Below are positions 135-45,812 of a stretch of 64,000 nt of DNA, piece by piece. Each line of letters begins with the position of its first letter. The stretch's first letter is position 1. Origin of the DNA: Actinomycetospora sp. NBRC 106378 (lineage in GTDB: Bacteria > Actinomycetota > Actinomycetes > Mycobacteriales > Pseudonocardiaceae); contig NZ_BSTT01000012.1 in NCBI RefSeq assembly GCF_030269685.1, positions 1-64,000 on the forward strand, read 5' to 3'. Made by a program: the position numbers and the translations under genes. Under the pieces are notes generated by a model. The model saw only the letters and a program-made list of their open reading frames with translations, did not search any database and was not told the DNA's origin.

Positions 135-154
135 CCTGCCTCCCGTGACCCTCG
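135..154 (+). repeat. Half copy of the CCTGCC-N4-GTGAC-N-CTCG dyad element
   Basis: The 20-mer CCTGCCTCCCGTGACCCTCG matches the right arm of the dyad at 12424-12443 and, on the other strand, the left arms of the array at 43847-44055. No partner arm lies upstream; that position is occupied by the end of the IS30 element. Confidence 0.55.
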
Positions 155-12387: not shown

Positions 12388-12443
12388 CGAGGTTCACACC
12401 AGGCAGGAAACCGGCCCCGGAAACCTGCCCCACGTGACACTCG
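12388..12443. repeat. REP-like imperfect dyad element
   Basis: Left arm CGAGGTTCACACCAGGCAGG (12388-12407) and right arm CCTGCCCCACGTGACACTCG (12424-12443) are inverted copies, mostly paired except for an inner N4 block, around a 16-bp spacer. The right arm is nearly identical (one mismatch) to an arm of the array beside dnaA. The element occupies the 157-bp gap between the DUF222 gene and the glycosyltransferase gene. Confidence 0.6.
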
Positions 12444-36502: not shown

Positions 36503-38605
<2,103 letters not shown>

Positions 38606-41830: not shown

Positions 41831-43051
41831 TCAGCCGGGGAGGCGCACCGGCATCAACAGGTAGAGGTAACCCGGCCGGGGCTCGGGCAACGAGGCGTCC
41901 GTCTCGGGACCCGGCTCCACCGCCGTCGCACCCTGGCCGGCGGTCTCGTCCTCGGACGCGCCCTCGCCGGGTGCACCGGCCGGACGGAGCAGGGCGGGCC
42001 GGCTCGGCGTGGTGAACGACAGGTGTGCGTGGTCGGCACCGAGCGCCCCGAGCCCGTCGAGCAGGTAGCCCGGGTTGAAGGCGATCGTCAGCGGCTCCCC
42101 CGCGAACGAGCAGGGCAGCTGCTCCTCGGCGCTGCCCTCGTCGTCGCCGCCCGCGGTCAGCCGCAGCGAGCCCTCGTCGAACTCGAGCCGCACCTGCGTG
42201 CCGCGCTCGGCGACCAGCGAGACGCGCTTGATGGCGTCGACCAGCGGCCCGATCTCGACGACCGCCGCCGAGGTGTGCTCCTTCGGCAGGAGCTGGCGGT
42301 AGCGCGGGAACTCGGCGTCGAGCAGGCGGGTGGTCGACCGGCGTCCGCCGCCGGACAGGCCGAGCAGACTGTCGCCGCGTCCCAGGGCGAGCTCGACGGT
42401 GCCGCCCGCCGACGTCAGCGTCTTGGCCGCCTCGGACAGGGTGCGCGCCGGGGCGAGGATCGCGGTGGGCTCGCCGTCGGCCGACGCCGGGTTCTCCCCG
42501 GGCTCCCAGGTGAACTCGCGGACCGCGAGCCGGAAGCGGTCGGTGGCGGCCATCGTCAGCGCGGAGCCGTCGATCTCGACGCGGATGCCGGTGAGCATCG
42601 GCAGCGTGTCGTCCCGACCCGCGGCCACGGCGACCTGCGAGACGGCGCGGGCGAAAACGTCGGGGGCGAGCTCCCCGACCACCGGGGGCATCTCCGGCAG
42701 TTGCGGGTAGTCCTCGGCGGACATCGTCGGCAGGCTGAAGCGCGCGTTGCCACAGCTCAGGGCGGCGCGCGGCCCGTCGACGGTGAGATCGACCGGATGC
42801 GGCGGGAGCGACTTGGTGATGTCGGCCAGCAGCCGCCCGGACACCAGGGCCCGGCCGCCGTCGCCGATCATCGCCGGCACCTCGACCCGGGCGGAGACCT
42901 CGTAGTCGAACCCCGAGACGGTGAGCGTGCCCTCGTCGGACGCGTCGAGCAGGACGCCGCCGAGGACCGGGACGGGCGCCCGGCTGGGCAGGCTGCGCGC
43001 GACGAAGGCCACCGCGTCGGCGAAGGCGTCGCGCTCCACGCGGAACTTCAT
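41831..43051 (-). CDS. dnaN: DNA polymerase III beta subunit (sliding clamp)
   Basis: 406 residues, from ATG at 43051 ([21 protein letters not shown]). Three clamp domains of about 120 residues; C-terminus [12 protein letters not shown] is the conserved clamp end. It tethers polymerase to DNA as a dimer ring. Between the last domain strands and that end there is an acidic/Gly/Pro insert of about 35 residues ([12 protein letters not shown] and on), which lengthens the protein relative to the usual 370-380. The spacer upstream is the presumed oriC. About 115 bp separate it from gnd. Confidence 0.97.
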
Positions 43052-43202
43052 CGGTGGGTCTCCTGACGTCGGGTCGGGTGCCCGCCGCGGCTCCCAGGCC
43101 GTGTCGGCCCCGGATCCGGGCAGGTCGTCACGGTAGAGCCTGCCAGGGGGGTCCGACACTCCGGCCCTGTGCAGCGCCGGACGGCGCGAACGCTCCCCAA
43201 CC

Positions 43203-43240
43203 CCTGTTTTGAGAGGGATCTCTTCAAGAGAGAGAACAGG
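43203..43240. other. AT-richer segment with nested inverted repeats (possible unwinding element or dnaN promoter)
   Basis: CCTGTT (43203-43208) and AACAGG (43235-43240) bracket a segment that contains TCTCTT-C-AAGAGA (43219-43231 approximately). It is the only marked drop in GC within the spacer and lies about 150 bp upstream of dnaN. It may be the DNA unwinding element; alternatively it is the dnaN promoter region. Confidence 0.4.
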
Positions 43241-43845
43241 AATGACAGTAGGTCCTGTGGGCAGTGTGGAGCACTGCCGTCGATGCAGGTCGGGCGCTCC
43301 GGACCCGTGTGGAGCGACGGGGTCGGTGCGTGCCCGGATCCGGGGACGGATCGGCGTGTCAGGTGGACGGAGGCCGGGCACCCGCCTCCACCCACCCCTC
43401 CGTCCACCCGTGCGGGCCGGCTGTCCACAGACTTGTCCCCAGCTGTGGGTCGATCGGGAGTCGAACGATCGCGCAGCGCGACGACGCCACGATGAGCGGC
43501 GATCGTGCCGCGGGCGCCGGACGAGCGGTCACGCCGATCGTGTCCGCGTGTCGCCCTCTCCGAGCACCTGTGTCCAGATTTCGCTCACGCTGTGTCCGGA
43601 TCGGGGTGCCGACGGGCGCGCAGCGTGGTCGCACGGCCGTGGCCGGTCGTGGCGCGCGGTGGCCGGTCGGTCCGACGTCCCCGGGCGTCGACGGTGCTCG
43701 CGCCGGTGTGGATTCACCGCACGGACGTGCCGGGACGGCGTCGAGGTCCACCGGATCGGAGGAGCGACCCGGGCGGTCGTCCCGGGCGGCGGGGGCCTAG
43801 ACGGTCACTCCGGGCCGCGGGTGGCCCGGGCGTCCAGCCCGAGCG

Positions 43846-44091
43846 GCGAGGGTGACGTGGGGCAGGCGAGTGGGGCAGGCGGGCTGCCTGATGTGACTCT
43901 CGAGCCAGGCCGCGGGGTGGCCCGGGTGGTCACCACGAGCGGCGAGGGTGACGTGGGGCAGGCGGACGGGGCCGCCGGGATGCCTGATGTGCCCCTCGGG
44001 CCGGCCGCCGGAACCCGGGCGGTCACCCCGAGCCGCGAGGGTCACGTGGGGCAGGCGGGCGGGGCAGGCGGGCTGCCTGATGTGACCCTCG
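43846..44091. repeat. Three tandem 93-96-bp units, each an imperfect dyad (REP-like array)
   Basis: Anchors GCGAGGGTGAC/GTCAC-GTGG-GGCAGGC begin at 43846, 43942 and 44035; TGCCTGATGTG begins at 43885, 43981 and 44074. Each unit has a left arm (CGAGGGT-S-AC-N4-GGCAGG) and an inverted right arm (GCTGCC-N4-GTGAC-N-CTCG); arms of the third unit match at 17 of 21 positions. A further partial unit may precede at 43804-43845. The last unit ends 36 bp before the dnaA stop codon. Spacing is a multiple of three, so frames stay open, but this is not taken as coding. Confidence 0.8.
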
Positions 44092-44126
44092 GCCGGGCCG
44101 CGGCAGCACCCGCCGTCGGGAAGCCG

Positions 44127-45812
44127 TCAGCTGCGCGCGCGCTGCTTGATACGCGCGGTGAGCTCCTGGACCTGCTCGTAGGTCCGGCGGCGCTCCGCCA
44201 TCTCCTTGCGGATCTTCTTGTCCGCGTGCATGACCGTCGTGTGGTCGCGGTTGCCGAACATCTGCCCGATCCGGGGCAGGGACAGGTCCGTGAGCTCGCG
44301 GCACAGGTACATGGCGATCTGCCGGGAGAGGGCGAGGGCCTTGGTCTTGCCCGGCCCGGTGAGGTCGTCGATCGAGACGCCGTAGAACTCCGCCGTGACC
44401 GCCATGATCGTGGGCGCGGTGATCTCGGACTGCCGCGAGTCGGGGATGAGGTCGCGCAGCACGATCTCGGCGAGCTGCAGGTCGATCGGCTGCCGGTTGA
44501 GCGAGGCGAACGCGGTGACGCGGATCAGCGCGCCCTCGAGCTCGCGGATGTTGCGCTCGATCCGGTCCGCGATGAACTCCAGGACCTCCGGCGGCGCGGC
44601 CATCCGCTCGCCGGCCGCCTTCTTGCGCAGGATCGCGATGCGCGTCTCGAGCTCGGGCGGCTGGATGTCGGTGATCAGGCCCCACTCGAACCGCGTGCGC
44701 AGCCGGTCCTCGAGGGTCTCCAGGCGCTTCGGCGGCCGGTCGGAGGAGACCACGATCTGCTTGTTCGCATTGTGGAGGGTGTTGAAGGTGTGGAAGAACT
44801 CCTCCTGGGTTCCCTCCTTGCCCTCCAGGAACTGGATGTCGTCCACGAGCAGCACGTCGACGTCGCGATAGCGCCGCTGGAAGGCCACCTTGCGGTCGTC
44901 GCGCAGGGAGTTGATGAAGTCGTTGGTGAACTCCTCGGTCGACACGTACCGCACCCGCATGCCGGAGAAGAGCCGCTGGGCGTAGTGCCCGACGGCGTGC
45001 AGCAGGTGCGTCTTGCCGAGACCGGAGTCGCCCCAGACGAACAGCGGGTTATAGGCGCGGGCCGGCGCCTCCGCGACCGCGACCGCCGCCGCGTGGGCGA
45101 AGCGGTTGGAGGCGCCGATGACGAAGGTGTCGAAGAGGTACTTCTCGTTCAGCCGGGTCTGGGAGCGGGGCGCACCGCGCGCGCCGTCGCCGGGGATCTC
45201 CGGCTCGGGGCGGCTCGGCGGGGCCGCGGTGCGGCCGGGCGGGCTCCAGATCTCGTGGACAGCGGCGAGGCCGTCACGGACCTCGTCGACCTCCTCCTCC
45301 GGGTGCGAGCGGTCGGGATTGTGGGTCACCCTCCCGACGCCCGCGGCGGCCGCGATCGCGTCGGCCCGGTGCGAGCGCTCGCCGGTGAGGTAGCCGGTGT
45401 CGGGGCCGCCGTCGTCGTAGGCGGGCCGGGAGTACCCGTCGCCCGCGTACGGCTCGGGCGCCGGCGCCGACAGCCGCGGCAGCGGGGAGGTCTCGGGGCC
45501 GGTGCCCTGGTCGCCTCCCGAGCGGGCGCTGTGGTCGACCCGGACGGCGAGCTGCACCGGGCGGCCGATGCGCCGCGAGAGGGCGTCGACGATGGGGTCG
45601 CGCAGCGCCCGCTCGATGGCCTCCTTGGCGAACTCGCTCGGCGCGGCCAGCAGGGCGGTGTCGTCGAGCAGCCCCAGCGGCCGGGTGACACGGATCCAGG
45701 CACGTTGCTGGGCCGAGAGCGGGGCCCGGTCGGCCGGGTCGGTCGACGGGCTGGTGAGTTCCAGGACCACGTCTGCCCACGTCTGGTCGAGGTCGGAGAG
45801 CTGATCCGTCAC
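44127..45812 (-). CDS. dnaA: Chromosomal replication initiator protein DnaA
   Basis: 561 residues. Domain I (about 1-90), a long Pro/Gly-rich domain II (about 95-225, longer than in E. coli), AAA+ domain III with Walker [10 protein letters not shown] (about 258-266) and Walker [10 protein letters not shown], and the domain IV DNA-binding helix-turn-helix [15 protein letters not shown] (about 518-532). It opens oriC and loads the helicase. The GTG at 45812 gives [19 protein letters not shown]; upstream sequence in the frame has other composition. It ends in KQRARS next to the dyad array. Confidence 0.98.

Follow-up and report, generated by a model that had tools for sequence, protein, structure and literature searches.

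A lineage-specific family of extragenic dyads with unlike arms, a replication-strand bias and phased spacing in Actinomycetospora

Results

A tandem dyad array beside dnaA

The window analysed here is a stretch of 64,000 nucleotides from Actinomycetospora sp. NBRC 106378 (contig NZ_BSTT01000012.1, positions 1 to 64,000). It contains dnaN (41831..43051, minus strand; gene call and Pfam) and dnaA (44127..45812, minus strand; Pfam Bac_DnaA), with a tandem array at 43804-44126 in which three 93-bp units span 43825-44106 at spacings of 96 and 93 bp. Each unit holds one 56-bp dyad, CGAG-N10-GGCAG-N18-CTGCC-N10-CTCG, with inverted 19-bp arms. The dyads lie at 43847..43902, 43943..43998 (one mismatch to the pattern) and 44036..44091; the plus strand is the better-folding strand in all three, with wobble scores (described below) of +5, +4 and +3. 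Because dnaA ends at 44127 on the minus strand, the last arm is 35 bp from its stop. Two sites at 43421..43441 (plus strand), towards dnaN from the array, match TTGTCCACA, the DnaA box consensus, with one mismatch each.

The array had been described in a sequence-only reading as three tandem units with inverted arms, which the coordinates above bear out; its adjacency to dnaA also stands, at 35 rather than 36 bp. That reading saw a constant core with a variable four-base block, and this is correct, except that each arm has two variable blocks and that 'GTGAC' is not constant beyond its GT. The constant part of the arm is CTGCC-N4-GT-N4-CTCG, and the element as a whole forms a 56-bp dyad whose layout hardly varies.

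Both further copies that had been named in the window are also real. A single dyad of the same family lies at 12388..12443 between two minus-strand genes (minus strand, wobble score -4), and a lone right half-site lies at 136..154 (plus strand). In the related genome G005 the junction matching the former also carries a dyad, and the place matching the latter carries a whole one. Each of the two arm consensuses has six matches in the window at up to three mismatches, against 0.12 and 0.02 expected; one of these 12 matches, at 37801, is probably due to chance. At the start of the contig, an open frame ends at window position 118, 17 bp before the half-site, and by eye its end resembles an IS30-type transposase; its 38 residues have no Pfam match. 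Since the matching place in G005 holds a whole dyad, an insertion sequence may have landed in the dyad here. Dyads also lie about 100-2300 bp from the ends of several other contigs of this genome (C5, C8, C15, C18 and C21; loci L045, L052, L070, L074 and L077).

A dispersed family confined to one subclade

The genome of the window (G000; 6.31 Mb, 52 contigs) contains 165 dyads at up to one mismatch, against two in a reversed-pattern control, and 73 perfect dyads against none. Counts were made at this threshold because a search at up to three mismatches is swamped by chance (308 against 235 in the control). BLAST of the array against the genome returned 67 matches at E<=10, many of them weak. 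The suggestion of a dispersed element is thereby upheld: the copies are paired, intergenic and arranged in tandem arrays, and they number well above the five or so below which the idea would fall.

For closer analysis we used 127 dyads in 75 arrays (up to two mismatches), a working set drawn from DNA around known places rather than from the whole genome; 58 of 185 raw matches were dropped, all with more than two mismatches. Three lone dyads in the set (L059 1579, L068 4487 and L071 1696) are probably chance matches, and they are included in the arm-word, gene-placement and covariation counts and excluded from the gap contrast. The sampled arrays comprise 36 single, 30 double and 8 triple dyads and one of seven. 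Facing arm pairs fall almost entirely at one distance: the 35-39 bp bin holds 115 of them, the bins next to it one at most. The element consists of two 19-bp half-sites in inverted orientation, set 37 bp apart in most copies and 36 or 38 bp apart in a few. The outer block CGAG/CTCG is present in 95-100%, partly by choice, since the search used this block.

Within the genus, dyads at up to one mismatch are numerous in G005 (176) and G000, with fewer in G009 (52), G002 (39), G017 (28), G010 (13) and G006 (4); the remaining eleven of 18 genomes have 0-2, and the controls 0-4. Perfect dyads occur in 12 of 248 family genomes searched (15 of the genus): 77 in G005, 73 in G000, 23 in G009, 9 in G002, 3 in G017 and 2 in G010, plus one each in six genomes outside the genus, a level at which the reversed control also matches single genomes. 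By DnaA identity the dyad-rich genomes are nearest relatives at 92-96%, with the others at 86-89% (fragments aside). Perfect dyads in numbers are thus restricted to one subclade of the genus. Searches of plasmid and phage collections returned nothing. The closest named dnaA loci point to the Pseudonocardiales.

Sites and orientations shared between species

At the dnaA site, G000 and G005 each have three dyads, at different spacing; G002 has one degenerate dyad and G017 has two of a variant form. The remaining 13 of the 17 genus genomes compared (own genome included, G012 not among them) have none. The array had been placed within the presumed oriC, with the question of whether it affects the origin. 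Since 13 of 17 genomes lack it in the dnaA-dnaN gap, which in them is merely shorter, the array is not part of the conserved origin, and an effect on the origin is not supported. The dnaA array is an ordinary member of a large lineage-bound dyad family, not a special part of the origin.

G000 and G005 are syntenic over 177 kb around the origin at 80-92% identity. Of seven G000 sites there, counting the half-site at 136 and setting aside a three-mismatch match at 159590, five are bordered by conserved DNA on both sides, and G005 has an element at each of them; the sites at 90735 and 152325 lie within stretches absent from G005. Beyond the window, a gene for a MarR-like regulator (by eye; contig C12, 90228-90896) has two dyads on its 3' side, and the gene and its dyads are absent from G005 as a block. 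Forty G005 dyad regions were also compared: 22 fall on sampled G000 loci, all of them junctions with dyad arms in both genomes, 17 have no judgeable G000 counterpart and one is a short chance match (L222).

Identity was measured at 22 sites, namely 18 of the 22 shared loci (without L205, L207, L213 and L224) and four near the origin. It is 95.5% in the core, a value partly due to choosing matches by the core, 69% in the Y word, 61% in the loop, 56% in the X word and 51% in the flanks (the two variable words of each arm are named by the layout CTGCC-Y4-GT-X4-CTCG). Orientation agrees at 17 orthologous sites, disagrees at one and is undecided at four, and copy number often differs. Sites and orientation are therefore kept between the two species while the flanks are saturated, a new observation for this family.

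The junction between a DNA-polymerase-delta-like gene and the S20 gene shows how the elements change between species. Members of the subclade carry dyads with species-specific words there (G017; also G006 and G010, where the outer blocks have changed, in G010 on both sides), spaced by 93 bp in G000, 83 bp in G005, G017 and G006, and 82 bp in G010, where looser copies lie at distances of 59 and 146 as well. By eye, G009 has one degenerate dyad and G002 is degenerate too. Among nine outer genomes compared at this junction, three (G003, G007 and G012) have a different palindrome, GTCAGCGANGNCACTTCGCTGAC. At up to two mismatches it has 49 matches in G013, 47 in G007, 46 in G012, 40 in G014, 29 in G003, 26 in G006 and 16 in G015, few in G011 (6), G001 (4) and G000 (1), and none in G002, G004, G005, G008, G009, G010, G016 and G017. 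These counts sum both strands, with some places counted twice, and the reversed control gives 0 throughout. With 4 dyads and 26 such matches, G006 therefore holds both palindrome families. The second palindrome (L285-L289) is dispersed mostly in outer species of the genus, in species-specific variants. TGATC precedes the dyads at L258 and L260 (G006 and G010), resembling by eye the TGATC before some outer-species palindromes at this junction.

Unlike arms within each dyad

In many dyads the Y word of one arm is TGGT or TGGC and that of the opposite arm YCAC. The two arms have identical three-base Y words in 9 of 127 dyads against 25.1 (s.d. 4.0) expected, though tandem copies are not independent. 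Pair statistics in the window's own genome gave no significant positive Watson-Crick covariation in the 18-bp middle, and covariation in the words is negative, with z down to -5.6. An RNA hairpin maintained by covariation was considered and is not supported by the pair statistics.

Because the words are kept unlike, one strand pairs through G.T wobbles while the other meets A.C clashes. Among 56 polar dyads, one from each locus, 51 have the A-left strand as the more stable one. Mean fold z is -2.68 and -2.15 for the two strands, compared with -0.13 for nearby DNA. Arms kept unlike, so that one strand folds better through wobbles, are a property of these dyads that we describe here for the first time.

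The better-folding strand and the direction of replication

Arrays were scored by which strand carries the wobbles, with fold energy as a second score. The G005 genome is one contig of 6.17 Mb, in which dnaA lies at 4.54 Mb and the binned GC skew changes sign near 1.2 Mb; one bin, at 2.4-2.8 Mb, departs from this pattern. Of 78 arrays in two samples, 74 could be scored by wobble (4 ties), and in 54 of these the strand with the wobbles is the template of the lagging strand (p 9.6e-5); fold energy places 57 of 78 the same way (p 5.6e-5). With the terminus set elsewhere, the wobble counts are 53/74 and 51/74. Arrays with an absolute mean score of at least 2 show the bias more strongly (39 of 46; p 1.8e-6), and it appears in each type of gap: 29/37 convergent, 21/31 co-directional, 6/7 divergent and 2/3 edge, with ties decided by energy. 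Weaker biases are obtained from the A/B class of the first dyad (45/66; p 0.004) and from the X words alone (31/46; p 0.026).

The bias was first noticed in the first G005 sample (37 of 46 at a score of at least 1). The second sample, of 40 stretches, four of them placed on already known matches, gives 14 of 23 at an absolute score of at least 1 (p 0.4), 9 of 11 at 2 or more (p 0.065) and 6 of 6 at 3 or more, and on its own it therefore supports the bias for clearly polar arrays only. Copies within an array run head to tail: of the 29 first-sample arrays with more than one dyad, 23 have dyads of one sign throughout.

On the dnaA-bearing contigs of G017, G009, G002 and G010, 13 of 14 scorable dyads agree with the rule, with one tie (13 of 15 by energy); one dyad was taken per array where several were listed, and the five left out also agree. 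Arrays of related genomes are not independent, as orientation is inherited at shared sites. On the window's contig outside the dnaA array, the dyads at 12388, 150180, 152325 and 152419 agree and those at 90735 and 90828 disagree, two of six scorable, and 117655 is undecided. The dnaA array itself lies to the right of the DnaA-box-like sites and fits the rule if forks start there. This lagging-template bias of the folding strand, in G005 and on the origin contigs of four relatives, is the second new property of the family. Composition skew was rejected as its cause, as the flanking DNA has a skew of just -0.05 to 0; the middle of left-replichore dyads shares some skew (loops -0.10 and -0.13).

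Spacings cluster near whole helical turns

Neighbouring dyads in G000 are most often 83 bp (15 cases) or 92-94 bp (16) apart, followed by 103-105 (3), 123-124 (3) and 73 (1); other spacings are 84, 85, 89, 91, 95, 96, 99 and beyond 135 bp. For 43 non-redundant G000 spacings below 135 bp the vector length R is 0.78 at a period of 10.2 bp, and none of 20000 jittered sets is as high. In G005, 41 spacings give R 0.80 (0 of 10000 jittered sets). Eleven spacings from other genomes (67 and 81-84) are weakly phased, with 455 of 10000 jittered sets as high. Off-phase spacings exist (78, 85, 89, 96, 99 and 133), one of them within the dnaA array. Spacers differ little from shuffled ones in likeness (0.40 against 0.35 at 27 bp, 0.39 against 0.39 at 37 bp, and 0.43 against 0.36 for the four of 38 bp). 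Clustering of spacings at 83, 93, about 104 and about 124 bp, approximately whole helical turns, across unrelated spacers is likewise new. The clustering may mean that the axes of the dyads tend to point the same way, or that two unit lengths have been inherited, readings that the data separate only in part.

The phasing points to double-stranded DNA rather than to single strands. In a possible but tentative explanation, a dimeric protein (nucleoid-structuring, gyrase-attracting or fork-related) would bind the inverted half-sites as a double-stranded bipartite site; arrays would put the dyad axes on one face of the helix, and the unlike arms would give a direction relative to the fork. The phased spacings of 73, 83, 92-94, 103-105 and 123-124 bp dominate in both G000 and G005, with spacers hardly more alike than shuffled ones; this dominance, the lack of positive covariation in the dyad middle and the core kept at orthologous sites amid flanks at 51% identity are consistent with it. 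So is the joint change of both outer blocks in G010, at one junction, which a stem explains equally. However, duplex sites alone explain neither the replication-strand bias of the better-folding strand nor the species-specific words; phasing is weak in the eleven spacings from other genomes, off-phase spacings occur, and inheritance of two unit lengths could account for the two main modes.

Placement relative to genes

With gene calls from a simple codon-usage caller, the 75 G000 arrays fall in 34 co-directional, 30 convergent and 6 divergent gaps, at 3 edges and inside 2 called genes; the same number, 2 of 75, overlap a called gene by more than 60 bp. Among gaps of 60-1500 bp, and without the three probable chance dyads, 30 of the 49 convergent gaps hold dyads, compared with 32 of the 131 co-directional and 6 of the 63 divergent ones (Fisher p 8e-9 for convergent against divergent, 7e-6 for convergent against co-directional). 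As the gaps come mostly from loci chosen around dyads, the contrast is meaningful, not the fraction. A similar preference of published REPs for convergent and 3' positions is described in passages of PMC3733652.

Such placement, together with the fact that both strands fold better than shuffles, would suit RNA elements, that is, bidirectional terminators or stabilisers of mRNA 3' ends between convergent genes. We consider this unlikely. Orientation relative to the neighbouring gene shows no clear bias in G000 (18 against 13, 3 undecided), and in G005 the wobble strand is the sense strand in 18 of 31 co-directional arrays, compared with 21 of 31 for the replication rule. On the question raised by the sequence-only reading, whether the array affects dnaA mRNA ends, the strand data give no preference to an element that works only when read along with its gene. 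Pairing covariation is lacking as well, and by eye one junction has a hairpin of its own next to the dyads.

Searches for an associated enzyme

At E<=0.1, none of the 18 genus genomes has a match to the REP transposase family PF01797 (RAYT), against 8 of 14 control genomes; at E<=1 the window's own genome has none either, against 10 of 14 controls. The REP-associated tyrosine transposase that the sequence-only reading proposed to look for is thus not found among these genomes, and its label 'REP-like' is borne out for the dispersed, intergenic, paired family and fails for the enzyme. No conserved GTAG or CGTC foot occurs within 40 bp on either side of the 127 dyads. The integron integrase model TIGR02249 has no match over its cut-off in the 18 genomes, with one weaker C-terminal match in each, probably XerC/D. 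Rfam gave two matches in window 42900-44400, both far below the gathering score.

Ten proteins beside selected arrays include no transposase; nine belong to ordinary families (cytochrome, transporter, replication, ribosomal and similar) and one has no family. Inverted ends, dispersed copies and a patchy species range would fit a MITE, the remnant of an insertion sequence with abutting end repeats moved by a DDE transposase, but no transposase is found beside these arrays and target-site duplication gives no signal in 36 single dyads and two k=2 matches among 54 tests on the outer flanks of 39 arrays, which, even though old insertions could have lost the duplication, makes this origin very improbable.

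Discussion

The family resembles the REP and REPIN elements of E. coli and Pseudomonas in its more than 100 extragenic palindromic copies, its inverted doublets at constant distance, its conserved internal mismatches and its convergent and 3' positions. The anatomy and placement of those elements are described in passages of PMC3733652, PMC3116915 and PMC8266576, the last of which states that E. coli REPs need internal mismatches. Our dyads differ in that the foot is CGAG/CTCG rather than GTAG or CGTC, no RAYT was found in the genus, and the dyad middle shows no compensatory pairing in the window's own genome, the joint outer-block change of G010, at one junction, being the exception. They also have variable words between constant blocks, a replication-strand bias and phased spacing. 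As the tests of the GTAG/CGTC foot, the RAYT and the compensatory stem fail, we do not file the family as REP. Like the BIMEs of E. coli, the dyads form tandem clusters at regular spacing, but they run head to tail where BIMEs alternate.

A strand-specific hairpin tied to the lagging template also recalls the ends of IS200/IS605 elements, members of which insert into the lagging template according to the part of PMC6006769 covered. In contrast to these, the dyads come with no visible gene, no Y1 transposase found and no known left and right end. Likeness extends further to a folded single strand in which unpaired bases decide the strand, as in integron attC sites, although no integrase exceeds the cut-off in the 18 genomes. 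IntI is named beside REP in a passage of PMC8266576.

Neither a replication-strand bias of REPs, in the portions of the open-access literature searched (PMC12306157, PMC3733652, PMC3116915, PMC8266576 and PMC6006769), nor phased REP spacing, in the REP passages compared, was encountered; nor was such a dyad family in this order, in a search that covered the same kind of source, with subscription journals outside its scope.

Our preferred reading, to which we give a probability of roughly one half, is a REP/REPIN-like lineage-specific family without RAYT that acts through single-stranded hairpins at the replication fork. The blocks CGAG, AC/GT and GGCAG, all constant, can pair with their mirror images, with the words between them kept unlike. 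A putative reader protein, not a recognisable Y1 tyrosine transposase, would most likely recognise the folded single strand where it serves as template of the lagging strand at the fork, in the manner of IS200/IS605 ends and REPs. Recognition of the hairpin would spread, renew and orient copies, and the elements would then persist at the 3' ends of genes. Beyond the observations themselves, we infer that a protein reads the single strand, that this protein causes the spread, and that the spacing reflects protein bound to one side of the duplex. Against the reading count the missing PF01797 match in 18 genomes, the ten proteins beside selected arrays, among which no substitute enzyme was identified, the lack of a clear target duplication, the second G005 sample, significant for strongly polar arrays only, and the two disagreeing dyads on the window's contig. 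Given the strand bias, recognition of single-stranded DNA at the fork leads among the mechanisms considered, and the helical phasing keeps duplex binding open as an alternative.

A fuller version of the single-strand reading is more speculative. A putative protein would read folded lagging-strand DNA through the variable words, spread and re-write the dyads in concert, and set them by replication direction and helical phase, all without a known REP transposase; related species would use other word sets or, at a shared junction, an unrelated dyad family.

The portions of the literature covered link REP elements to RAYT enzymes. A large family with no RAYT found and with a bias to the lagging template in several species would imply either a second kind of enzyme that acts on folded single-stranded DNA or upkeep by other means. 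Because the word sets change between species, the reader protein may be found by co-variation with them, and the bias and the phasing give clear and cheap tests.
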